Positions 1-38,300 of a DNA stretch of 64,000 bases are shown here, piece by piece. The translations under genes and the position numbers were made by a program. Each line of letters starts with the position of its first letter. The first letter of the stretch is position 1. Source of the stretch: Methylotenera mobilis JLW8. Lineage in GTDB: Bacteria; Pseudomonadota; Gammaproteobacteria; Burkholderiales; Methylophilaceae. The notes under the pieces are model-generated. The model did not search any database. It worked only from the letters and a program-made list of their open reading frames with translations, and had not been told where the DNA came from. Location: assembly GCF_000023705.1 (NCBI RefSeq), contig NC_012968.1, positions 682,001 to 746,000 on the forward strand. Direction: 5' to 3'.

Positions 1-3000
1 TTGCCATGAGGCTTCTAGCTGACTAATCAGTGAAGGTAATAGTTTCTTATTTTGATGATGGGCGGCAGATTCTATTTCGCCATAAATCCGTTGCAATTTA
101 TTGATGGATAAATTAGCGGCGACCCCCTTTTGTGCATGAGCTAGTGCATTTAATAATGCAAAGTCATTGGTTGTGGCTGCCAGCCTTACTTCTTCTAATG
201 CCTGTGTGTGCTGTTGAATAAATAATTGTAGCTGAGCATAGTAAGTTTGCTCACTACCCCATAATGCAATACCGCGATCAACTCTAAAATCAGCCTCAAG
301 TGATTCTTTCTCAAAATCTTTTTTTTGTGCTTGGGTGTCGTTTACATTAAGAACGCGAGCCATTTCTCGAGTGAGGTTCGCAAGCTCAATTGGTTTGGTG
401 GAGAAGCCATCCATGCCAGCTTCTTTTGCGGCTACTCTATCCTCTTCAAGCACGCTCGCAGTTAATGCAATAATCGGTGTTTTGAGTGTATTGTTTTCAA
501 GTTCTAAGGCTCTAATCCTGCGAGTAGCTGTTAGCCCGTCTACTTTTGGCATTTGAACATCCATTAAAACAATATCAAATGGATGGCTTGCGAACTGCTC
601 AAGCGCCTCTTCACCGTTGCTAACTAAAGTTACTTCGTGCCCATCTCGGATTAAGATGATTTTTAGTAGTTCACGATTCTGTGCAATATCGTCTGCCACT
701 AGAATACGCATAGGTGGAAGTTTACTAATCAAATCTAGCGTTAACAGCTCTTTTTCTTCTCCTTTTTTTAGTGGAAGATTAATGCTGAAGCAACTGCCTT
801 TGCCTAACTGGCTAGTAGCCTTGATTGTGCCTCCCATTGCTTCGACGAGTTGTTTGCTGATTGTCGTGCCTAGTCCGGTTCCACCAAAACGGCGGCTCAT
901 AGATGCATCTGCCTGAGTAAATGGTTCAAATATGGCATCAAGCCTGTCAGCTGCAATTCCAATTCCTGTGTCGACGACATCAAAATGAATAACATCCTGA
1001 TTTTGGGCATATACTTTCAATTTTACTGACCCTATATCGGTAAATTTAATGGCATTGCCAACTAAGTTCATTAATACCTGACGAATGCGATGGGAGGGGC
1101 CGTAATAATAGCCGGAGACTTCATCGCAGATTTCGAGTTGCAGATCCAGTTCTTTTTTACGAGCTTGCAACCAAAGTGTTGATATCACACTATCTACAAG
1201 CGTATTCATAGAGAAGTCAAAGAACTCTAGTTCCAGCATACCTTTTTCCAGCTTTGCACTATCTAAAATATCATTGAGTAAGTGCAGTAGAGACTTAGCT
1301 GAGTTGTTGATGGTCGAGACGTAGTTTTGCTGATCCGGCTTCATTTCTGTGTCCAGCATCAATTCGGTAAACCCAATAATTGCATTCATTGGTGTACGAA
1401 TCTCGTGACTCATGTTTGCCAAAAATGTAGATTTAACGCTGGCGGCTTGTTCTGCTATATTTTTTGCTTCACGTAGATCGTTCTCCATTTTCTTGCGCTC
1501 AGTAATGTCAATCATAAACATAATGACTTTGTCTATTTTGTTGTCAAAGTCCTTTACTGGGCTATAAAACGCATTGATCCACACCTCACGTCTATCTTTC
1601 CCTAGGCGTAAGAATTCTCCATGCACAAACTCACCATTTCTTAGTGATCTCCATTTGTTTTTGTATCGAGCAGATTTTGCATCCTCTTCAGAGCAGAAAA
1701 TAGAGTGATGCAGACCTATCACCTCTTCTAGGGTATAGCCTAGAAGAGAAAGGAAATTTTGGTTCGCAGTCAGAATCAGGCCGTCAACCGAAAACTCTGC
1801 AATGCTCGTAGAGTAGTTAATCGCCCTTACAATACCTTGGTATGCCGCGTTTCTGCGCTTAGATTCTGTGATGTCAATAATGACACCATCCAACATTACA
1901 ATATTGTTATTTTCATCGTAAATGCCTGAGCCAAACTCACTCACCCATTTTTCTTCGCCATTGCGGTCGGTGATTCGGTATTCCACATTGTAGTGCTGGT
2001 GATTTTTGATGGCAGTTTCTATCGTTGGGGTAACTTTAGCCAGGTCATCTGCATTGGTGATTTTCGGAAAATGTATTGTCCCATCCAAGAAGTCTTGTGC
2101 TTGCCAGCCGGTCAGTTGAAATACTCGGTTGCTAATAAATTGCATGCTCCAGTTTATGTCATAGTTGCAGCGAAACGCTATACCAGGAATATTTGCTATC
2201 ATTGATTGCAATTGTTCGTCTTTTTCTCTGACCGCTATTTCCATTTCTCTGCGAGGTGTTAAGTCGGTAATGAAGCCTACAAATAGAGTTTCATTACTTA
2301 ACACTACCTTACCAATCGCCAGCCGGATGGGGAATAATGAGCCATCTTTACGTAAACCTTCCACCTCTCTGCCTACGCCTATAATCTTAGCCTGACCGCT
2401 TTTTAGGTAATTATTTAGGTATTCATCATGGTTGGAGTGATGTGGGTTAGGCATCAATATGTTGATGTTTCTTCCAATGACTTCATCTGCCGTCCATCCA
2501 AATAACTGCTCGGCAACGGTATTGAAAGATAATATATTGCCCTTGGTGTTAATGGTAATGATGCCGTCGATTGCAGTATTTAAGATTGTAGAAAGCCTCG
2601 TCTCGCTTGCCTGAAGCGTCGCTAAAGTTTGTTTATATCTTGCTAGAGCATTCACGGAGGCTGCTAATATCCCAATCAATAGGGTTACTAAAGTGATGCC
2701 TAATGACATGGATACGGTATGCCCATCAAACGCATCAGGCTGGTTGCCGTTGGCTTCTCCAATAAATCGAGCAGAGGCCATACCAGTATAGTGCATGGCG
2801 GTAATAGCGCTTCCCATCACTAGGCCGCTGATAATCACACCAGTAGACTTAGGTAGTTTACCCTTTTGATGATTGAGGGTTGCTCCTAACCAAAGAGATA
2901 AAGTTGCTAAAGAAATTGCAACAATAATGGATAAAAGCACCCAGTTAAGATTAAAGCGTAGAAGTGCGCTCATCTGCATGGCGAACATGCCGGTATAGTG

Positions 3001-26802: not shown

Positions 26803-27471
26803 TTAAGCCGCGCCGCAGCTAACCTCTTTGAGTTCTGCTGCTGGGAAGCTTGGTTTTAGCTTTTTAATCTCGGTTATCTCATTCTCACTCAAGTTTTTGA
26901 GTAGTAAGCTGGAGTAGCTTTTACCTTGGGTACGCAAGGCTTTTTCTACGTTTTTAATCCCTTTGGCTTGCAGCTCTTTTTGTAAGTGGGCGGCTAATTG
27001 CTCATCGTTAAAAATACCAAATGAAATTGCATTTTTCCATTTAGGCTCTTGCACCACAAATACGTCGGTTACCCCCATTGCTTTAAACTCCGCAGCTTTT
27101 TTGAACGCTTCGGCGGTTGATTTAAATGGCGGCCTATATACCCAAAATCGTTTAGATGCTTGTATGGTCTGCTCTTTTACCGTGGCTTGTAATGAGAGCT
27201 TACCTAGCTCACCTTGTGCATTGGTGAGGTTAGCATCGGAAAAAACACTCCATTCAAAGCAAACATCTGCGATGGGCGCAGGTTTAACCTCTGCTACTTG
27301 TTGTTCTTTCTTGCTCATCGCATCAATTTGCTGCTGAGATAGCACTTTGATTTTTTCTGGTGAAATCTCTGCTTGCTGCGTTGGTGCTGGCTGCGGCAGG
27401 ATGACGTCACGATTAAAATAGCCAAATAAGCCAATGTTAATGAATGCGAATAGCCAAAAAAGGTATTTCAT
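26803..27471 (-). CDS. SPOR-domain membrane protein
   Basis: A 222-residue protein with an N-terminal membrane anchor (residues 3-20), a Gln/Lys-rich linker, and a C-terminal region resembling the SPOR peptidoglycan-binding fold (RFWVYRPPFKSTAEAF, then FGIFNDEQLAAHLQKEL). Two further cysteines, in ADVCFEW and EVSCGAA, could form a periplasmic disulfide. It follows coaX by 11 nt in the order birA-coaX-SPOR, a recurrent betaproteobacterial arrangement. Its role is inferred to be envelope or septum related; the link to the cofactor genes is positional only. Confidence 0.75.
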   Translation of the reverse strand: MKYLFWLFAFINIGLFGYFNRDVILPQPAPTQQAEISPEKIKVLSQQQIDAMSKKEQQVAEVKPAPIADVCFEWSVFSDANLTNAQGELGKLSLQATVKEQTIQASKRFWVYRPPFKSTAEAFKKAAEFKAMGVTDVFVVQEPKWKNAISFGIFNDEQLAAHLQKELQAKGIKNVEKALRTQGKSYSSLLLKNLSENEITEIKKLKPSFPAAELKEVSCGAA

Positions 27472-27482
27472 GACGATGTGCT

Positions 27483-28310
27483 TTATGAGTTGTTGTTCAT
27501 TGCCGGCTGCGCCAGTAGGTACAAGCCTTGCAATACTAAGTTATCTACGATGGTAGCAGTGATGGTAACAGTTTTTTTTCCGTCTAGAACGCTGCTGTCG
27601 CTGTAATCTTGCTGCGCGAGTGCTTGCTGTATTAAGCCTGCATTGCCACCACTCAGTATCAGGGTGGGTTTTTGGCCTTGCGGAGTAACTGCTTGCAACA
27701 TCTGTTTAATGGCACCCAAGGTGGCGTGAATTGCCCCGCTGACAATAGCATCGCTGGTGTTGTTGGCAAATGGCGGAATGCTGGCTTGCTGGTTAATGGC
27801 TACAGCAGCTTTGGGTAACAGAGCAGTGGCTGCACCTAGGCTTGTTTGCATTAGTGTTATGCCAGGCAATATCATGCCACCAATAAACTCGCCGTAACTG
27901 CTGTCTGCATTTTCTCGGCGAATAATGGCATCTATCGTGGTGGCGGTGCCTGCGTTAACTACCACACACGTTGCATGCTGCATGTGCCACGCTGCGATAA
28001 GCGCCGCCCAGCGATCCGTACCTAGTGACTCTGGAGTAGTGTAGTTGTTGACTACGCCAGCGGCTTTTTTGCTGGCAGTGACCCAAGTGATGGTAGCTTG
28101 GTATGGCGTGATGTGTTGTTGAAGCTGCTCCGCACGTTGTGCACCTGCAACATTAGAGATCACGATTTGAGTGCAGCTAAGCGTGTTTGGCAATAGTTTG
28201 GCGGTGGCAATTTCTGTATTTAAGCATGCGTCTTGATGGCAGATGTTTCCGTTCGCATCAAACAATGCCCATTTTGTTTTTGTGTTGCCAGCGTCAATTG
28301 TTAACACCAT
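27483..28310 (-). CDS. coaX: Type III pantothenate kinase
   Basis: Phosphorylates pantothenate in the first step of CoA synthesis. ASKHA-fold motifs are visible: DAGNTKTKWALFD at the N-terminus (phosphate loop), ESLGTDRWAAL (substrate binding, GxDR) and VVNAGTATTIDAI (Asp/Thr). I start it at the ATG on 28310, giving MVLTIDAGNTK as in the family; an upstream in-frame ATG at 28325 would add five residues. There is no strong ribosome site. It lies 80 nt after birA on the same strand. Confidence 0.93.
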   Translation of the reverse strand: MVLTIDAGNTKTKWALFDANGNICHQDACLNTEIATAKLLPNTLSCTQIVISNVAGAQRAEQLQQHITPYQATITWVTASKKAAGVVNNYTTPESLGTDRWAALIAAWHMQHATCVVVNAGTATTIDAIIRRENADSSYGEFIGGMILPGITLMQTSLGAATALLPKAAVAINQQASIPPFANNTSDAIVSGAIHATLGAIKQMLQAVTPQGQKPTLILSGGNAGLIQQALAQQDYSDSSVLDGKKTVTITATIVDNLVLQGLYLLAQPAMNNNS

Positions 28311-28390
28311 GTTTATGCGTGCCAATGCGAAAGAAATGAATGATTGCGTATTATTCTAACACTAAGTTTTTTTACCTCAGCGTTTTAACG

Positions 28391-29383
28391 TCAAGCGCTA
28401 TCTGCCTGTTTGGCGCTACGCAAGCTGATTTCGCCGGACATCATTTTTTGCAAGCCATTGGCGGTTTCTACAATTAAGGTGCCATTGTCACTAATGTCCT
28501 GTACTACGCCAGTCACTTCGCTACCATCCGGCATCAGCATGCGTACAGGTTGCTGATGATAGGCGTGATGCGCGACCCACTCTTCGCGTAATGCATCAAA
28601 GCCAGCTTGTTCAAAAGTGGATAACACCTCGACCATGTGCTCTAACAGCTTTGCCATCAGGGCGTTAGGGTTAACGTTTGATGGCGTGGCATGGTTTAAA
28701 TCTGTCACCGGCTGGTCAATCTTTTGCAATAGCTGTTCAGGTAAGTGTAGGTTAATACCTACGCCAATCACTGCGGTGCTGGGGCCATCCATATCGCCTT
28801 GCAACTCAATGAGGATGCCAGCTAGTTTTTGCTGGTTGACCAGAATGTCATTCGGCCATTTGAGTTGGGCTGCGCTTGCGTCTATCTCATGCAGGCCACG
28901 AATCAGTGCAACGCCTACAGCCAAGCTTAAGCCGGATAACGCAGCTGCTCCGCACTGAAAGCGCCATAACAGTGAAAAAGTCAGGCTCGCCCCCAAGCTA
29001 GCTTGCCACTCACGGCCGCGGCGACCTCGGCCATTGGTTTGCAGGTTGGCAATCACGCAAGTGCCATGTGTTTTGGCGCTCATGTTTTGCATCAGGTAGC
29101 TGTTGGTAGAGTCTATGGTGTCAAACACCTCTATATTCAGCCATGCGTGTTGCGGGCTTATGTGGCTGGTAATGGCTTGTTTATCTAGCAGGGCGAGTGT
29201 ATGCGCTAACTTATAACCACGACCACGCACAGAAAATATCTCAACGCCTAGACTTTCGGCATGTTGCAATGCATTCCACACCGTAGCGCGGCTCACGTTA
29301 AAATGCTGTGCGATGGCTTCACCAGAGTGAAACTTGCCATCTGCGAGGTGTTTTAATATCGGGAAAGTCAGGCTGTTTGTCAT
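28391..29383 (-). CDS. birA: Biotin--protein ligase / biotin operon repressor BirA
   Basis: Attaches biotin to the biotin carrier protein of acetyl-CoA carboxylase; the N-terminal helix-turn-helix suggests it is also the biotin repressor. Residues 1-65 hold the winged helix (GEAIAQHFNVSRATVWNAL). The catalytic domain has GRGRRGREWQA, the biotinyl-AMP loop, and KWPNDILVNQQKLAGIL. A small C-terminal SH3-like domain ends the 330 residues. It is the first gene of the minus-strand birA-coaX-SPOR group and divergent from glnS. Confidence 0.94.
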   Translation of the reverse strand: MTNSLTFPILKHLADGKFHSGEAIAQHFNVSRATVWNALQHAESLGVEIFSVRGRGYKLAHTLALLDKQAITSHISPQHAWLNIEVFDTIDSTNSYLMQNMSAKTHGTCVIANLQTNGRGRRGREWQASLGASLTFSLLWRFQCGAAALSGLSLAVGVALIRGLHEIDASAAQLKWPNDILVNQQKLAGILIELQGDMDGPSTAVIGVGINLHLPEQLLQKIDQPVTDLNHATPSNVNPNALMAKLLEHMVEVLSTFEQAGFDALREEWVAHHAYHQQPVRMLMPDGSEVTGVVQDISDNGTLIVETANGLQKMMSGEISLRSAKQADSA

Positions 29384-29577
29384 GGCCTAAGTTTAGCATA
29401 GGCATGTAGATAAGCTGAATTTGGCCAAGTTAGCAGTTTGTTTTTTAAAGTAAAGCATAGCGGTTAGTTAGATCGGGCGCTACATGCAATCAATTTCTAC
29501 ACTTACAAATACACACGCGCACATACAAGTAAGTAAGCTAGTGTAAAATAACGGCAACTTTAATTGAATTTGTTGCT

Positions 29578-31374
29578 ATGTCATCTGAAAAAACACCAAT
29601 CCCTGCTGCTTCTAATTTTATCCGCGCCATTATTGAGAAAGACCTTTCTCAAAGTAAATACGCCACCAAAAAGTGGGCAGGCAGCCCCGGTGATGCGGCG
29701 CATCAAGACACAGGTGTTGTTGACACTGCAAAAATCCGCACGCGCTTCCCGCCAGAGCCTAATGGTTATTTGCATATTGGCCATGCAAAGTCTATTTTCC
29801 TAAACTTTGGTTTAGCGCGTGATTTTGACGGTATCTGCCATTTACGTTTTGATGACACCAACCCAGAAAAAGAAAGCCAAGAATACGTAGATAGCATTTC
29901 AGATGCAGTGAAATGGCTAGGTTTTGGCTGGGATAACGCTAACGAAACCAACTTGTATTTTGCCAGCAACTACTTTGACTTTATGTACCGTGCGGCAGAA
30001 AGCCTAATTGAGAACGGCCACGCTTATGTCGATGAACAAAGCGCAGATGAAATGCGTATTAACCGCGGTACGCTGACAGAGGCAGGCAAAGATTCACCTT
30101 TCCGTAACCGCACCGTTGCTGAAAACTTAGCGCGCTTTCGCGAAATGCGCGATGGCAAACACGCTGATGGCAGCATGGTGCTGCGCGCTAAAATCGACAT
30201 GGCATCGCCTAACATCAATATGCGTGACCCTGCGATTTACCGCGTGCGCCGCGCGCATCACCACAACACTGGTGATCAATGGTGCATTTACCCAATGTAC
30301 ACCTTTGCGCACCCGATTGAAGATGCATTAGAGCGCATTACCCACTCTATCTGCACGCTGGAGTTTGAAGACCAGCGTCCATTCTATGATTGGTTATTGC
30401 TACGCTTGGCAGAGCCGACTGAGGACGTCGGCGGAAACAAAAAGCCTGGTTTGTTAGCTGAACCGCTACCAAAACAATATGAATTTGCACGTTTAAACCT
30501 CACCTATGTGGTGCTTTCAAAACGTAAGCTGATTCAATTGGTAGAAGAAAAGCACGTAAACGGCTGGGATGACCCGCGTTTACCTACCATTGCGGGTGCG
30601 CGCCGCCGTGGTTACACCGCCGCTGGCTTCAAACTGTTTACCGATCGTATCGGCGTGAGTAAAGCAGACTCCTGGATTGAGTACAGCATCCTTGAAGACT
30701 GCATGCGTGAAGTGCTGAATACAGACGCAGAGCGCCGCATTGCCGTACTAGACCCAATCAAGCTGGTGATTGATAACTACCCAGAAGGCCAAAGTGAAGA
30801 CTGCTTTGCCCCTAATCACCCACTCAAACCAGAGCTAGGTAAACGTACCGTGCAGCTCAGCAAAGAGCTATGGATAGAGCGCGAAGACTTTATGGAAACG
30901 CCAAGCAAAGGCTTTTTCCGCTTAACACCAGAGGGCATGGTGCGCCTGCGCTACGGCTATGTAGTGAAATGCACAGGTTGCGAGAAAGACGCAGATGGCA
31001 AAGTGACCGTAGTGCATTGCGAATACCTGCCAGATACTAAATCCGGCACACCAGGCTCAGATAGCGTGAAAGTCAAAGGCAACATCCACTGGGTAAGCGT
31101 AGCGCATGCTTATGAAGCAGAAGTGCGCTTATATGACCGCTTGTTTAAAGAAGCACACCCAGGCGAAGGCGACAAAGACTTTTTAGACGATATTAACCAA
31201 AACTCAGTGCAAGTGATTACTACGCAATTAGAGTTGAGCCTAAAAGACGCTAAACCGGAAGAAAGCTTCCAGTTTGAGCGCCATGGCTACTTTGTGGCAG
31301 ATAGAAAAGACAGCGTGGCTGGTAAGCCAGTGTTTAACCGCACGGTGACGCTTAAAGATGCTTGGCAGAAGTAG
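29578..31374 (+). CDS. glnS: Glutaminyl-tRNA synthetase
   Basis: Class I synthetase charging tRNA-Gln. The HIGH motif is in RFPPEPNGYLHIGHAKS (near residue 65) and the KMSKS equivalent is VVLSKRKL. The product has 598 residues, of which the C-terminal half is the anticodon-binding beta-barrel domain. Base composition is typical for the window. The next start codon lies only 9 nt after its TAG stop, and the AGGA ribosome site of that gene overlaps the stop, so the downstream kinase is read directly off the glnS message unless it has an internal promoter. Confidence 0.96.
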   Translation: MSSEKTPIPAASNFIRAIIEKDLSQSKYATKKWAGSPGDAAHQDTGVVDTAKIRTRFPPEPNGYLHIGHAKSIFLNFGLARDFDGICHLRFDDTNPEKESQEYVDSISDAVKWLGFGWDNANETNLYFASNYFDFMYRAAESLIENGHAYVDEQSADEMRINRGTLTEAGKDSPFRNRTVAENLARFREMRDGKHADGSMVLRAKIDMASPNINMRDPAIYRVRRAHHHNTGDQWCIYPMYTFAHPIEDALERITHSICTLEFEDQRPFYDWLLLRLAEPTEDVGGNKKPGLLAEPLPKQYEFARLNLTYVVLSKRKLIQLVEEKHVNGWDDPRLPTIAGARRRGYTAAGFKLFTDRIGVSKADSWIEYSILEDCMREVLNTDAERRIAVLDPIKLVIDNYPEGQSEDCFAPNHPLKPELGKRTVQLSKELWIEREDFMETPSKGFFRLTPEGMVRLRYGYVVKCTGCEKDADGKVTVVHCEYLPDTKSGTPGSDSVKVKGNIHWVSVAHAYEAEVRLYDRLFKEAHPGEGDKDFLDDINQNSVQVITTQLELSLKDAKPEESFQFERHGYFVADRKDSVAGKPVFNRTVTLKDAWQK

Positions 31375-31383
31375 GATAACTTG

Positions 31384-32730
31384 ATGGTGTACACGATTAT
31401 ACAAGAGCTTGGAAGCGGATCATTTGGCAAAGTTAACTTGGCAATTGATGAGCATGGGTATCAAGTTGCAATCAAAACTTTGGAGCCTAGCCCAGTTTTG
31501 CAACAAGCCGTTGCAAATGGAAATGTATCTATGGAAGATCTAGTGAAGAGATTTTCTAGGGAAGTGAAGTACCAAAGCAAAATTGCAAATCCTAATGTTG
31601 TCAGGATTGTTGGTCACGATATTTCAGCAATACCTCCTTATTTTGTAATGGAGCTAGCTGATTGCACTTTACAGCAAGAATTAAAAAAAGACAGAACACT
31701 AGGTAGTAAGCCTCAACAAGCACTTTTTGATATTCTTACTGGGCTAGAAGCTATTCATGAAGCTGGTATATTTCACAGAGATTTGAAGCCAGCAAATGTA
31801 TTGAAGTTTACTAGTGCTGATGGAGGCGTAAGGTATTCACTCTCCGACTTCGGGTTAATGACAGCATCGTTAGGTGAAACTACTACACTAACGCCAAGTG
31901 GCGCAGGAGGTGGTACGGTTAATTATGCCGCCCCTGAGCTTATTAATAATTTAAAGCGAGCAACTGCAGCGTCAGATATATATTCATTTGGAGTAATTCT
32001 TTTTGATATATTCGGAGGGGGAGCTAATAGAGTGCCCTACACAGAGGTGCAGCTTGGAGGTCCAATCGGTAAGATTGCCTCTAGATGTACTAAAAATCTT
32101 GCAGCCAGACGATATTCTTCAATAGCTGACTTAAGGGCTGATTTATTTGATGCATTATCCTCTGAAGATGTTAAATTCTTAAGTTCTGCGGAGCAAACAG
32201 TTATTGAGCTTTTGGAAAACAATGACTTATTAATTGAACAACAATGGGATCAGGTTTTTGTATTCATTGAGGATAATCAACAAAACCTAGCAAAATGTCA
32301 TCAAGTATTTAAAGCTTTTAGAAATAATCATTTAGAGCAATTAAAAAATGAGGCTCCTGACTTACTAGGAGCATTTGGCAGTGACTTTTGTAATTACATT
32401 ATTGAGGGTGAAGGCGGCTTCAATTTTGAGTATTGTGATGTTTTGTCGGATAAGTTGATGAAACTTTATGAGTTGGGTGATGTTGCATTAAAGTCTCTCG
32501 TTATTCTGAGTTTATTAAATTTAGGGGCATCACATAACAGGTGGGTTGTTGAAAGACGGTTTATGAATTTAGCTGGACAGGAGTTACCTGAAAACGTCGC
32601 AAATAAAATCGTTATGGATGTTGAGATTTTGGAGTTCGAATTCATAAGATTTATGTCCCATGTCGAGCGCTCAATAAATGCTAATAGTAATAGTCTGCAT
32701 CCAATTTTACAAAAAATAATAGTTCGCTAA
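31384..32730 (+). CDS. Eukaryotic-like Ser/Thr protein kinase with unknown C-terminal region
   Basis: Soluble Hanks-type kinase (448 aa). I start at ATG 31384, 7 nt after AGGA; a TTG one codon earlier is less likely. The kinase domain (about 1-260) is complete: glycine loop GSGSFGKV (10-17), Lys31 in VAIK, Glu60 in SREV, catalytic HRDLKPANVL (131-140) with Asp133, metal-binding DFG (Asp155), APE (183-185) and DIYSFGVILFD. Residues about 260-448 are a largely helical, Asn/Leu/Glu-rich extension I do not recognise. There is no membrane segment and no PASTA or other sensor domain. DNA is clearly AT-richer than glnS (hand counts of single 60-nt lines give 21 versus 34 G+C), and a PP2C gene follows after 3 nt. 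Substrates are unknown. Confidence 0.92.
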   Translation: MVYTIIQELGSGSFGKVNLAIDEHGYQVAIKTLEPSPVLQQAVANGNVSMEDLVKRFSREVKYQSKIANPNVVRIVGHDISAIPPYFVMELADCTLQQELKKDRTLGSKPQQALFDILTGLEAIHEAGIFHRDLKPANVLKFTSADGGVRYSLSDFGLMTASLGETTTLTPSGAGGGTVNYAAPELINNLKRATAASDIYSFGVILFDIFGGGANRVPYTEVQLGGPIGKIASRCTKNLAARRYSSIADLRADLFDALSSEDVKFLSSAEQTVIELLENNDLLIEQQWDQVFVFIEDNQQNLAKCHQVFKAFRNNHLEQLKNEAPDLLGAFGSDFCNYIIEGEGGFNFEYCDVLSDKLMKLYELGDVALKSLVILSLLNLGASHNRWVVERRFMNLAGQELPENVANKIVMDVEILEFEFIRFMSHVERSINANSNSLHPILQKIIVR

Positions 32731-32733
32731 ATT

Positions 32734-33435
32734 ATGCAAAATGTAGGATTTACAATTCCTAAAAAAGATTTAGATAATGGGGATAGATTTCTTGTTGAGG
32801 AAATTTCCCCAGCAACATATTTATTGGTTATAGCAGATGGAGTGGGTAGCTCAAGTCAACCTGGATATGCGGCTGAATTGGCGGTTAATAAAACTATTAG
32901 CGAAGTCAAGAATAACCCAGATATTTCCTTCTCAACTCTATTTAACTCTATTAAAGAGGTTTTGGTGTTTGAATCAAACAAAATCTCTTCAGTTTCTACT
33001 TTACAAACAACATTAACAGTTTGTATATTAAAAAATAATTACGCTAGAGTGGGGCATGTAGGTGATACCCGCCTATATCATTTGAGGAGCTCTGGTTTAG
33101 TGACGCGCACAGAGGATCAAACGGAGCTTAAAAAACTGGTGGATGAAGGTGTTATCAGTCCAATTCGTGCAAAAAACTATCCAAGAAAAAACGTTCTTCT
33201 TTCTGTGTTAGCAAGCAATAGAGATTTCGAACTTTATGAAAATGGATTTGATGTGCAAGAAAAAGATCGATTAATGCTAATTAGTGACGGTTTTTACAAA
33301 GTAATTTCTAAAAAGACAATAATACAAATATCAACAAAACATTTTTCAATCAATAATTTAGCTGATGAGCTACAAGAGTATGTTGTAGAAAAAGGCATTA
33401 ATGATGATTGTACGTGTTTGGTTGCAGAGATTTAG
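32734..33435 (+). CDS. PP2C-family protein phosphatase
   Basis: Metal-dependent Ser/Thr phosphatase of 233 residues, presumably reversing the upstream kinase. Expected metal-site motifs are present: NGDRF (Asp17), ADGVGSS (Asp35), GHVGDTRLYHL (Asp111), SDGFYKV (Asp185) and GINDDCTCLVAEI (Asp224/225) at the C-terminus. The protein is a bare catalytic domain without membrane or regulatory parts. The ATG lies 3 nt behind the kinase stop, so the genes are co-translated. The sequence is AT-rich like the kinase. Such kinase-phosphatase pairs occur in type VI secretion control, cell-wall signalling and some anti-phage loci; nothing here decides which. Confidence 0.9.
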   Translation: MQNVGFTIPKKDLDNGDRFLVEEISPATYLLVIADGVGSSSQPGYAAELAVNKTISEVKNNPDISFSTLFNSIKEVLVFESNKISSVSTLQTTLTVCILKNNYARVGHVGDTRLYHLRSSGLVTRTEDQTELKKLVDEGVISPIRAKNYPRKNVLLSVLASNRDFELYENGFDVQEKDRLMLISDGFYKVISKKTIIQISTKHFSINNLADELQEYVVEKGINDDCTCLVAEI

Positions 33436-33443
33436 TATAAAAA

Positions 33444-34022
33444 TTGACCTCAATTAACCTAACTCAAGCCTACCGCCTCCTAAACCACGGCCCAACCGTA
33501 TTGGTTTCTACCCGCCACGGTACTCAAATCAACGTGATGGCAGCCGCATGGAATATGCCACTGGATTTCGACCCACCTAAAATCGCTATTGTTATTGATA
33601 AAAGTACCTACACGCGTGAGTTAATTGAAGCTTCTGGCACCTTTGCCATTAACGTACCGTGTCGTGCGCAAGCAGAGATGGTAGTGCGGGTGGGCGCTAG
33701 CTCTGGCCGTGAGCTCTTAGGTAAGCAACCGGACAATAAGTTTGCCGCATTTGATTTACCTACCTTTGCTGCTAGCAAGATTGATGCACCTTTGCTTGAG
33801 GGGTGTGTGGCGTGGCTGGAGTGCAAGTTGATTCCTGAGCCGCATATTCAAAATACGTATGATTTATTCTTAGTCGAGGTAGTGGCGGCTCATGCGGATG
33901 AGCGCGTGTTTAGTGATGGTCGCTGGCATTTTGAAGGCTTTGATGACTTGCGCACAATTCATCATGTTGCGGGCGGTGCTTTTATGGCGATTGGTGAAGC
34001 CTTCACCACGCGAGCAGGTTAA
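33444..34022 (+). CDS. Flavin reductase family (FMN-binding split barrel) protein
   Basis: A 192-residue member of the flavin reductase-like FMN-binding family; relatives reduce flavin with NAD(P)H or act as unassigned flavoproteins. The typical core is visible: GPTVLVSTRHGTQINVMAAAWNM, then DFDPPKIAIVIDKSTYTRELI and TFAINVPC. The only start giving a full-length protein is TTG at 33444, 8 nt after the PP2C stop, without a recognisable ribosome site. Base composition returns to that of the housekeeping genes here. The poor start may mean the original upstream region was replaced when the kinase-phosphatase pair arrived, or that translation is coupled to PP2C. Confidence 0.82.
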   Translation: MTSINLTQAYRLLNHGPTVLVSTRHGTQINVMAAAWNMPLDFDPPKIAIVIDKSTYTRELIEASGTFAINVPCRAQAEMVVRVGASSGRELLGKQPDNKFAAFDLPTFAASKIDAPLLEGCVAWLECKLIPEPHIQNTYDLFLVEVVAAHADERVFSDGRWHFEGFDDLRTIHHVAGGAFMAIGEAFTTRAG

Positions 34023-34042
34023 CCTTTACATCAGGATTGAAG

Positions 34043-35161
34043 ATGAAAAAATCCCGTCCGCGTAAATCCAAAAAACAACTCTCTAAAAAAATCGGGATGG
34101 CGCCGGGCTCGCTCGTTTATGTGGGCAGTATGGATGCCAATGCTGCGCAACTGGCTAAGCCGATTGTGAGCGTGATGATTTATGACGCGGCTGAATTAAC
34201 TGAGCAAATATTAAGTGCTGAAGCGCTTGCCAACTTTAAACTCACTGACTATAGCAAAGCCGGCAAAAAGGTTTGGCTGAATGTGCACGGCGTGCATGAT
34301 GCCGCACTGATTAAGCAAATTGGCGATTTATTCCATTTACACCCATTGGTGCAGGAAGATATTCTCAATACCGAGCAGCGCCCAAAAGTAGATGAGTTTG
34401 ATGATTATGTGTTTTTAGAAACACGTTGTTTCCGCTACGACCAAGCCGCAATGACGATGGATTCCGAGCAGGTGAGTTTTGTGTTGGGGCGTGATTACTT
34501 GCTGACGTTTCAAGAGCGCGCTACCGGTAATTTTGAGCCGGTGCGTACACGCATGCGCGTAAGCCGTGCGCATATTCGTGAGCTGGGCGTGGATTACTTA
34601 GCCTATGCCTTGCTGGATAGCGTGGTGGATAAATACTTTAGCGTGCTGGAAGCGGTGGGTGATGCGAGCGAGGCGCTGGAAGAGGTGTTGCTACATAAGC
34701 CAACCAATACCGAGCTGCATGCGATTCACCAGCTTAAGCATGTGAGTATAGAGTTGCGTCGCGCGGTGTGGCCACTACGTGAGGTGATTAATACCTTAAG
34801 CCGTAATGAAAATGATTTCTTTAAACCCACCACCATGCCGTACCTGCGTGATGTGTACGACCACACGGTGAGTTTTATTGAGTCGCTGGAATCAATTCGC
34901 GATGCATTAAGCGGCATGATGGATATTTACATGGCGAGCGTGAGCCAGCGTGTTAACCTAGAAGTGCGCGCCTTAACTGTGGTAGCCATGCTGTTTATGC
35001 CAGCGACTTTAATTGCCGGTATCTTCGGCATGAACTTTCATGAGATGCCGTGGCTGGCCGATAAAGACGGCTTTTGGTGGGCAATGGGCTTAATGCTGAG
35101 TATCGCGCTGGTGATGCTCACTATCTTTTGGCGTCGTCAGTGGCTCACTAGCCAAAGCTAA
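34043..35161 (+). CDS. corA: CorA-family magnesium/cobalt transporter
   Basis: Pentameric inner-membrane Mg2+ channel. The 372-residue protein has a large cytoplasmic N-terminal domain and two C-terminal helices; the pore signature is GIFGMNFHEMP (the GMN motif) at the end of the first helix. A short Lys/Arg-rich N-terminal tail precedes the domain. ATG 34043 is chosen because AGGA lies 6 nt upstream; a TTG two codons earlier is less likely. It follows the flavin reductase by 20 nt. Confidence 0.93.
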   Translation: MKKSRPRKSKKQLSKKIGMAPGSLVYVGSMDANAAQLAKPIVSVMIYDAAELTEQILSAEALANFKLTDYSKAGKKVWLNVHGVHDAALIKQIGDLFHLHPLVQEDILNTEQRPKVDEFDDYVFLETRCFRYDQAAMTMDSEQVSFVLGRDYLLTFQERATGNFEPVRTRMRVSRAHIRELGVDYLAYALLDSVVDKYFSVLEAVGDASEALEEVLLHKPTNTELHAIHQLKHVSIELRRAVWPLREVINTLSRNENDFFKPTTMPYLRDVYDHTVSFIESLESIRDALSGMMDIYMASVSQRVNLEVRALTVVAMLFMPATLIAGIFGMNFHEMPWLADKDGFWWAMGLMLSIALVMLTIFWRRQWLTSQS

Positions 35162-35271
35162 TGACTCATCAAGCTTTACCTTTGTGTGACAGGTGAGCGG
35201 CTTTGTGTAGCATATTCAAAAGACCTTGGCTTGAAATGTCTGTGCTCAAAATATCTTGATTAATTTGCCAG

Positions 35272-35303
35272 ACAGATTAGCGACTTAACACGCGCTAATC
35301 TGT
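35272..35303. promoter_or_regulatory. Perfect inverted repeat at the purL promoter
   Basis: ACAGATTAGCG (35272-35282) and CGCTAATCTGT (35293-35303) form perfect 11-nt arms around a 10-nt centre. The right arm abuts TAAAAT at 35304-35309, a candidate -10 box about 40 nt before the purL ATG. The position suits a repressor operator or an attenuating hairpin. It does not match the E. coli PurR box as I know it, and lacks the T-run of a terminator. Confidence 0.5.
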
Positions 35304-35347
35304 TAAAATCTCGGTTTATTCTTGTCCTTGATATTTAGCTGAGTTTA

Positions 35348-38300
35348 ATGAGCCAATCTAATCCAAACACACAAATGATCAGCCTGCGAGGCAGCGCTGC
35401 TTTATCACCTTTCAGAATTGAAAAAATTCAAAATAAATTGAATGAAATATGCCCGAACATTGGTCATATTTACGCTGAGTTCTGGCATTTTGTATGGGTA
35501 GATGGCGCGTTAACAGCCCAGCAAGAAAACACACTAAACCAGATTTTGACCTACGGCCCAAGTATGCAGGCTGAAGAGCCGAACGGCGAGTTTATTTTGG
35601 TATTGCCACGTGTGGGTACGATTTCGCCTTGGGCATCGCGTGCGACTGATATCGTGCAGCACTGTGGTTTGCCTGAAGTGCAGCGCGTAGAGCGCGGTAT
35701 TGCTTACTATGTGCAAACCAAGAGTGGTCAGCCTTTAACCGCCAATGAGCGTCAATTACTGTTGCCCTTGATTCATGACCGTATGACTGAAAGCGTATTT
35801 GCCAACAAGCAAGACGCGGGCAAGTTATTCCACACTGATACCCCTAAACCATTAAGCACCATTGATGTATTGCAAGGCGGTAAAGCGGCGCTTAACCAAG
35901 CTAATAACGAAATGGGTTTGGCCTTGTCACCAGATGAAGTGGATTATCTGTTTGATAACTACACCAGAATGCAACGCAACCCAACCGATGTTGAGTTGAT
36001 GATGTTCGCGCAAGCAAACTCAGAGCATTGCCGTCATAAAATCTTTAATGCAGATTGGGTGATTGATGGCGAGCAGCAAGAGTTTTCACTGTTTGGCATG
36101 ATCCGCAATACGCACAAGTTGAACCCAGGTGCAACTGTAGTGGCGTATTCTGACAACGCTTCTATTGTGGCGGGTCAGCAAGCGAACGAGCCAACCAAAC
36201 GTTTTTACCCAGCAGAAAATGGTGCTTACCGCTTTGTTGAAGAAGACATGCACTTCTTGATGAAGGTGGAAACCCATAACCACCCAACGGCAATTTCTCC
36301 ATTTGCGGGTGCGGCAACGGGTGCTGGCGGTGAGATTCGTGATGAAGGTGCAACCGGTAGCGGTTCTAAACCTAAAGCAGGTTTGACTGGCTTCTCAGTA
36401 TCTAACTTGAATATCCCTAACTTTACCCAGCCTTGGGAATCAGACGCTTACGGTAAGCCTAACCGTATTGCTTCACCATTACAGATTATGGTGGATGGCC
36501 CATTAGGCGGCGCGGCTTATAACAACGAGTTTGGTCGTCCTAACATTACCGGTTATTTCCGTACTTTAGAAATTGAAGCGCCAAGTGCAAGCGGCAATAC
36601 CGAAGTGCGTGGTTACCATAAGCCAATTATGTTGGCAGGTGGTATTGGTAATATTTCTGCACAACACTCTAAAAAGAACCCAATTCCACCGGGTGCTGCA
36701 TTGATTCAATTAGGCGGCCCAGCAATGTTGATTGGCTTGGGCGGTGGTGCGGCTTCTAGTATGGATACCGGCAGCAATGTAGAGAACTTAGACTTTGACT
36801 CTGTGCAACGTGGCAACCCTGAGCTTGAGCGTAGAGCACAAGAGGTAATTGACCGCTGCTGGCAGCTAGGTGAAGACAACCCGATTTTAAGTATTCATGA
36901 CGTAGGCGCGGGTGGTATTTCTAATGCGTTCCCAGAGTTGGTGAATGATGCTGGTGTAGGCGCAATTTTCCAATTGCGCGATGTGAATAACGAAGAGCCA
37001 GGCATGTCACCACGTGAATTGTGGAGCAACGAGGCGCAAGAACGCTACGTAATGGCGATTGCGCAAGAAGACTTACCACGCTTTAAAGAGATTTGTGCAC
37101 GTGAGCGCTGCCCTTATGCGGTGGTGGGCTACGCCACAGAAGATCGTCATCTAACCGTGGCGGATAGTCATTTTGAAAACAAGCCAGTGGATATGGACTT
37201 ATCTGTATTGCTCGGCAAACCGCCAAAAATGACGCGTGACGTAAAAAGCGCCGCACCAGTGCTAAAAGCATTTGACGCAAGCAAGATAGATTTAAAAGAC
37301 GCTGCAGCACGCGTATTACGTTTGCCGGGCGTTGCAGATAAAACATTCTTGATTACCATTGGCGACCGTTCTGTGACCGGCTTGGTAGCACGTGAGCAAA
37401 TGGTTGGCCCATGGCAAGTGCCAGTGGCTGACGTTGGTGTGACGTTAGCTGGCTACGAAACTTACCGTGGTGAAGCGTTTGCGATTGGTGAAAAAGCGCC
37501 ATTAGCTTTGGTGAATGCACCGGCTTCTGGCCGTATGGCAATTGGTGAATCTATCACCAATATCGCCGCTAGTTTGATTGACGACATCAGCGATTTAAAA
37601 CTTTCAGCAAACTGGATGGCGCCTGCAGGCCACGTTGGCGAAGACGCTGCATTGTTTGCCACGGTAAAAGCAGTGGGTATGGAATTGTGTCCGCAACTGG
37701 GTGTAAGCATCCCAGTGGGTAAAGACTCGATGAGTATGAAAACCGTATGGAATGATGACGGTGAAAACAAAGCGGTGACCTCACCAATTTCATTGGTGGT
37801 GACCGCGTTTGCTGCTACGCCAGATGCGCGTAAAACCTTAACCCCACAGTTGCAAACCGGTGTTGCATCACAATTGATTTTAATTGATTTGGGTGCTGGC
37901 AAAAACCGCATGGGTGGCTCAAGCCTAGCGCAGGTTTACGGTGAAGTGGGCAACGTTGCGCCAGATGTTGATGACGCAAACCAACTGAAACATTTCTTCA
38001 ACACGATTCAACAGTTGAATAAATCCGGCAAGATTATGGCCTACCATGACCGTTCTGACGGCGGTTTATTTACAACCTTGGTAGAGATGGCGTTTGCGGG
38101 TCATTGTGGTTTGAACGTAGATGTATCTAGCCTGCCTGGCTACTTGGTAGAAGCACTATACAACGAAGAGTTGGGTGCTGTGATTCAAGTGCGTGCAGAA
38201 GATACGCAAGCCGTGCTTGCTCAGTTTAACGGTTTGGCACATGTAGTGGCCGAAGTGACCACCGCTAACCAAATTGAAATCAAACACAACGGCCAAGTAG

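Follow-up and report, generated by a model that had tools for sequence, protein, structure and literature searches.

Between glnS and a flavin reductase gene, the genome of Methylotenera mobilis JLW8 carries an intact Hanks-type Ser/Thr kinase of 448 amino acids and a PP2C phosphatase of 233 amino acids, as seen in the open reading frames (ORFs) and with Pfam. The window, that is, the whole stretch of DNA that was analysed, is 64 kb long, and the features described here are listed in Table 1. An earlier sequence-only reading had described two complete, co-directional genes 3 nt apart, AT-richer than both neighbours, 9 and 8 nt away from the flanking housekeeping genes and unaccompanied by any other system component. 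This description holds in all its parts. ORFs, Pfam and catalytic motifs agree on two complete genes, the ORF coordinates give gaps of 9 nt (glnS to kinase), 3 nt (kinase to PP2C) and 8 nt (PP2C to flavin reductase gene), and the interval comprises the kinase and the PP2C alone. The GC content is 0.377 for the kinase, 0.339 for the PP2C and 0.364 for the pair (GC3 0.272), compared with 0.487 for glnS and 0.496 for the flavin reductase gene. Nowhere in the 64-kb window does the GC content fall effectively lower than at the pair: values as low were found in a fraction of 0.0016 of 1239 sliding windows of 2052 bp, and all 28 sliding windows with GC below 0.40 lie at its position. The kinase starts with ATG, with an in-frame TTG 3 nt upstream, and its presumed ribosome site, AGGA (by eye), overlaps the stop region of glnS. 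With a gap of 9 nt, and with no terminator-like site found on the + strand in a scan of positions 31100-33700, it is plausible that the pair is transcribed from glnS.

Table 1 Features of the window and of comparison loci (L numbers; remnant coordinates are glnS-oriented).
Feature	Location	Strand	Basis and remarks
glnS	29578..31374	+	ORF; left anchor of the hotspot, conserved
Hanks-type Ser/Thr kinase	31384..32730	+	Pkinase E 4.3e-32; phrog_2361 serine-threonine kinase E 1.3e-52; motifs intact
Activation-loop stretch, residues 162-176, invariant T170	31867..31911	+	pLDDT <50
C-terminal all-helical domain, residues 263-448 (186 residues)	32170..32727	+	Alignments, AlphaFold2
PP2C phosphatase, putative antidote	32734..33435	+	PP2C_2 E 7.1e-11; phrog_5650 E 7e-26; conserved Asp residues kept
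Flavin reductase gene	33444..34022	+	Pfam Flavin_Reduct; right anchor of the hotspot, conserved
Shortened glnS 3'-end copies	L111:1391-1474, L120:1387-1470, L128:1408-1578, L121:~1394-1420		
AbiJ/Abi_C	L091		
PDC-S20 KAP NTPase	L094		
PDC-M36A	L103		Partial match, E 2.4e-11
Retron II-A effector and RT	L111 (1648-3521)		Behind zeta-like gene
HEC-01A+B	L120		
Unstab_antitox/ParE	L099, L108, L121		L099 antitoxin by eye
Zeta-like P-loop proteins	L093, L098, L102, L111, L120, L121, L124, L128		Pfam (L093, L102, L120) or BLAST (others), by sequence alone; frames broken or partial in L098 and L128
Short-kinase + PP2C pairs (phiES15, Flotzy, Rahnella plasmid)	L057:7168-8687, L058:4562-6066, L059:7246-8711		

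The kinase motifs K31, E60, HRD (131–133), N138 and DFG (155–157), which we take to be catalytic, are intact and are invariant in nine aligned kinases. The AlphaFold2 model comprises the kinase domain and an all-helical C-terminal domain, with a pLDDT of 86 for the whole kinase; for the isolated C-terminal domain, the pLDDT is 93 and the pTM 0.90. According to the alignments, the invariant residues of this domain are F348, C351-D352, H384-N385-R386-W387, A406, I431 and H439-P440, and its strongest conserved run is GxSHNRW. Pfam finds kinase domains alone in the 448-residue protein, with no match to the C-terminal domain, and in the PDB this domain has no fold match at E ≤ 0.001 and no sequence match at E ≤ 1. 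The top rows of the fold search with the isolated domain, none of which reached E ≤ 0.001, were for the most part 14-3-3 chains and helical repeats of designed or natural origin. A KEN/HEPN-like nuclease C-terminus was considered and rejected: IRE1 chains aligned over ~470 columns but with an rmsd of ~15, and the isolated domain was left without a PDB match at the same threshold. The sole stretch of three or more residues with pLDDT below 50 in the kinase is located in the activation loop. Its residue T170, invariant in all nine aligned kinases, is a candidate phosphosite.

The PP2C retains the conserved residues N15/D17, D35-G36, G110-D111, D185-G186 and D224, presumably catalytic as well, which are invariant in eight aligned phosphatases. 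It scores 123 bits against NCBIfam Stp1, for which the cut-off is 230, and its match in PADLOC is a weak one, to PDC-M21C alone (E 1.5e-6). No PP2C relatives were found by a pattern scan of genome contigs, which used few short patterns and will miss relatives. Of 150 genomes of the family, 97 have a PP2C match; among the matches listed, frames other than that of the window are mostly longer, at about 270-330 or 565 amino acids. In the M. mobilis genome itself, adjacent kinase and PP2C matches form a separate locus at about 187-188.6 kb (G000:C1:186976-188582), a frame of 565 amino acids at about 1.799 Mb (1798680-1799963) is matched by both kinase and PP2C queries, and single kinase or PP2C matches are found at further places. 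The C-terminal domain of the kinase was found in 1 of 52 genomes of the genus, 1 of 150 of the family, 1 of 369 of the class and 1 of 398 of the phylum, each time in the M. mobilis genome itself, the samples overlapping and some genomes being incomplete. These data bear on the view that the pair is an ordinary housekeeping regulator of type VI secretion or the cell wall. Such pairs exist, and further genes for kinases and PP2Cs are present in the M. mobilis genome. However, these further genes are separate loci, and the presence of the C-terminal domain in one of 52 genomes excludes, for this sample, a conserved presence in the genus. On account of this sporadic presence and of the separate loci, we rejected a housekeeping role as very improbable.

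The C-terminus of glnS, used as a query, was found in 46 of the 52 genus genomes, the own genome included. From 44 other genomes, 46 downstream stretches were taken, G131 and G156 contributing two each and G554, at a contig end, being left out. The flavin reductase gene lies downstream in 26 of these stretches, and the counts leave out the remaining 20, in which a contig end or different neighbours were met. Of the 26 relatives' loci, 6 have an empty junction, with at most 67 nt from glnS to the flavin reductase gene, and the junction is filled in the other 20 and in the window, with inserts of 0.5-3.1 kb. The GC content of the insert is lower than that of the flanks in 20 of the 21 filled loci, the window counted, with a mean difference of 0.086 and L108 as the exception. 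The main cargo ORFs, as listed, are oriented like glnS. Ranked by flavin reductase identity, the nearest relatives are G040 and G158, and they have different cargo at the same junction. Lateral acquisition of the pair, which the sequence-only reading had proposed, is supported by the empty junctions and by the single genus genome with the C-terminal domain; the same reading had called for a comparison of the junction, and in most relatives this pair is missing from it.

In four of the relatives' loci (L111, L120, L128 and L121), a truncated copy of the glnS 3' end separates one insert, which is zeta-like, from the next. The remnants are about 82-170 nt long in the first three and about 24 nt long in L121. 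A fixed att core is not supported, because the lengths of the remnants vary, over a range of about 24 to 170 nt. We infer that insertion is anchored by glnS homology at one side and joined imprecisely at the other; the truncated copies suggest that such insertion was repeated.

Recognisable defence or toxin–antitoxin genes are present in 13 of the 20 filled loci of the relatives. At least 8 of 38 junction proteins match PADLOC at E ≤ 1e-10, namely those of L091, L094 and L103, two each of L111 and L120, and the window kinase; 25 of 118 families were listed, so that the total may exceed eight, and the zeta genes, which in L120 gave no match in PADLOC, stand outside this count. Behind glnS, the genus repeatedly carries zeta-like P-loop kinases of two families, at the loci given for the zeta-like proteins in Table 1 and at L105. 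The other 7 of the 20 filled loci (L090, L092, L100, L101, L117, L118 and L127) carry unclassified cargo with no or weak matches in the scans. The cargo of L092 has a weak match to PDC-M14B, and that of L101, a P-loop ATPase, has weak matches to mad8 and DS41_1. The cargo of L118 resembles that of L117 by eye, the PADLOC scan listing 25 of 118 families, and the second gene of L128 is also unclassified. These genes are candidates for undescribed defence genes. Because 7 of the 20 filled loci carry unclassified cargo, position by itself is no proof of defence. The junction as a whole is a swap site for defence and toxin–antitoxin cargo, with the characteristics of a defence hotspot flanked by core genes: the same two flanks, a variable, defence-rich cargo and empty sites in some strains. 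A literature search, with most subscription papers and all preprints outside its coverage, returned no paper that links glnS, a hotspot and defense systems. Because relatives carry varied anti-virus and toxin genes at the same spot, the pair is probably an uncharacterised virus-defence switch.

For an order-wide control, glnS was found in 106 of 120 genomes; the 45 best-scoring other matches were taken and 5 near contig ends were skipped, which left 40 flanks. When one same-strand ORF behind glnS was taken from 39 of these flanks, none of the 39 matched PADLOC at E ≤ 1e-10. This is a rough control, as the ORFs were chosen mechanically, some lying more than 1 kb away or perhaps not being genes, and each flank contributes a single ORF, whereas the hotspot is represented by all its main cargo ORFs. 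In three of the 40 flanks, from the same family, a flavin reductase gene, recognised by eye, lies 1-10 nt behind glnS. In the remaining flanks, the listed ORFs are within about 0.06 GC of their own flank. A glnS hotspot throughout the order was not seen in the 40 flanks.

Homologous pairs were found elsewhere. Scans with few short kinase patterns, by which relatives will be missed, gave full-length kinases in L136-L139, which are viral contigs, and the domain in L140-L143, which are from four genomes. A PP2C adjoins the kinase in seven of these eight loci, which were found by kinase patterns alone; the exception is L143, from Myxococcus. In L137, the pair is located between a P2-like gpA gene (phrog_91) and a portal gene (phrog_68), on a contig that also has integrase, capsid and terminase genes. 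Rousset et al., in the part of their article consulted, describe the gpA–gpQ interval as the antiviral hotspot of P2 (PMC9122126). In L139, a contig of 4.2 kb, the pair is beside the portal gene, and the portal side alone is visible. The closest relative found is that of Curvibacter sp. CHRR-16 (L140), whose 54% identical kinase has a 4-nt overlap with the stop of glnS and a GC content of 0.465, compared with 0.614 for its glnS. We take Curvibacter to belong to another family than M. mobilis. Its pair is followed, within L140:4308-8261, by ORFs that by eye resemble antitoxin/ParE and other toxin–antitoxin genes. No glnS was found beside the other seven loci in the stretch available, which for several extends less than 2 kb upstream. 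The plasmid search found the pair, with the PP2C adjacent, on three small Acinetobacter plasmids, together with BrnT/BrnA, and it returned two further plasmid records, from Streptomyces and Rhodococcus, with 28% identity and a coverage of at least 80%. Pairs of a short kinase and a PP2C, which lack the helical domain, are found in two phages, phiES15 and Flotzy, near lysis or packaging genes. A Rahnella plasmid has such a pair next to phage tail genes, and a Vibrio plasmid has one next to the gene of a restriction endonuclease. The sequence-only reading had suggested looking for a recurrence of kinase–PP2C pairs in defence islands; the full-length homologous pairs are located at the antiviral hotspot of a P2-like prophage, on the BrnTA plasmids and, in Curvibacter, behind glnS.

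Distances between kinase domains and between phosphatases are correlated over 15 pairs including that of the window (Mantel r 0.90, reached by none of 5000 permutations); apart from the eight loci found by the kinase, the pairs compared were chosen as pairs. For the 11 long pairs, r is 0.92, again reached by none of 5000 permutations; plain joint inheritance would also give such a correlation. Adjacent and co-inherited genes, as looked for in a type VII-like toxin–antitoxin system, in which the antidote is an enzyme that modifies the toxin, are what these data describe (7/8 loci; Mantel r 0.90). The same locations would fit a selfish addiction module, in which post-segregational killing stabilises a plasmid, a prophage or the pair's own locus with little or no phage defence: homologues are on plasmids and in prophages, and the junction also holds plain toxin–antitoxin pairs (ParE with its antitoxin) and zeta-like genes. 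We consider such a module unlikely, since homologues are located in a known antiviral hotspot and a PP2C is, to our knowledge, not a typical labile antitoxin.

A system of comparable composition has been described by Guo et al. (2024; PMC11341870). In the parts of that article consulted, KKP (PfkA-PfkB-PfpC) is an experimentally established phage-defence system in which two kinases are jointly toxic and a PP2C is the antitoxin; inhibition of the PP2C by a phage replication protein leads to growth arrest. KKP also steers prophage production through phosphorylation, by its MvaU branch, according to the same account. By analogy with this branch, the pair could be a regulatory phospho-switch that tunes the behaviour of a mobile element or prophage, or a stress response, without killing, and several homologous pairs are indeed in phages or phage-like contigs. 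The pair of the window, however, is in a chromosomal interval flanked by housekeeping genes, and the ORFs of positions 27000-38000 show no phage gene by appearance; a purely regulatory role is therefore quite doubtful.

We favour, with some reservation, the reading that the pair is a mobile two-gene phospho-switch, most likely a toxin–antidote module of phage defence. The best reading by analogy is a KKP-like one, in which the kinase would be the toxin and the PP2C the antidote of an abortive-type defence. The defence-type role proposed in the sequence-only reading gains support from the position at the junction and from the locations of the homologues, both of which are sequence evidence. In such a toxin–antidote switch, the pair would be expressed from glnS transcription, and the PP2C would normally keep the kinase, probably at T170 of the activation loop, and the kinase substrates dephosphorylated. 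Infection would inhibit or remove the PP2C, or engage the helical C-terminal domain of the kinase. The freed kinase would then phosphorylate essential proteins of the host or the phage, and growth would stop before phage release. A more specific proposal, which we put forward only tentatively, is that of a new bipartite kinase–phosphatase immune module, in which the helical GxSHNRW domain would be an infection sensor or substrate gate. The module would travel as a promoterless cassette that inserts behind glnS, the 3' end of which would serve as a recombination anchor for swappable defence cassettes. Remnants of this end, of differing length, are found in four loci, and the Curvibacter pair is at the same junction.

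The best PADLOC match of the window kinase is Mad6 of MADS (E 4.1e-41), through the kinase domain. Membership in MADS was rejected, as the Mad6 score of 90 bits is far below the NCBIfam cut-off, which is 460, and the two genes are alone in the interval, with no other mad genes. Compared with mad6, PD-T4-6, Stk2 and PknB, essentially the kinase domain is covered, far below the NCBIfam cut-offs. An assignment to Stk2 or PD-T4-6 was likewise rejected, for want of similarity over the full length: the best PADLOC matches stay essentially within the kinase domain, although a weaker PD-T4-6 model extends as far as residue 337. PD-T4-6 is a single-gene system, and the pair differs from both of these single-kinase systems in having a PP2C. 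What they have in common with the window kinase is a Hanks kinase domain, which in Stk2 and PD-T4-6 is tied to phage defence in the parts of the sources consulted (PMC11341870, PMC11514479); Stk2, from staphylococci, is described there as a single-gene system as well (PMC11341870).

KKP and the pair share Hanks kinases or a Hanks kinase with a PP2C in one cluster, a distribution in prophages and mobile elements and, as would be expected for the pair by analogy, the logic of a kinase toxin and a phosphatase antitoxin. The definition given for KKP, in the parts consulted, is two kinase genes and one PP2C, with a CSD on PfkA and an FHA domain on PfkB (PMC11341870). In contrast, the pair has one kinase, in which Pfam finds neither CSD nor FHA and which has the helical C-terminal domain instead. 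The KKP search order is a PP2C and then two kinases, whereas in the pair the kinase precedes the PP2C, and the genes of the pair, of 1347 and 702 bp, fall outside the KKP filter of 900-1300 bp. By the published description, the number of kinases, the missing CSD and FHA domains and the gene order thus set the pair apart from KKP, so that it is a variant and not a member. Besides KKP, no kinase/PP2C defence module was recognised among the papers listed by the literature search, with the coverage given above. As far as the account consulted goes, KKP demonstrates that reversible phosphorylation can drive a toxin–antitoxin system of phage defence, for which two cooperating kinases are required (PMC11341870). 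If our reading is true, a module with one kinase, and with a helical domain of its own that recurs, would make it simpler to study how infection tips the balance of kinase and phosphatase. The glnS–flavin reductase interval is a small address, cheap to read, at which to look for further systems in the genus. Core defence hotspots (PMC10250203) and the P2 hotspot (PMC9122126), in the parts of these sources consulted, are likewise small intervals of high turnover with varied defence systems; the junction described here differs from them in its own anchors, glnS and the flavin reductase gene, and in the remnants of the glnS 3' end between tandem inserts.
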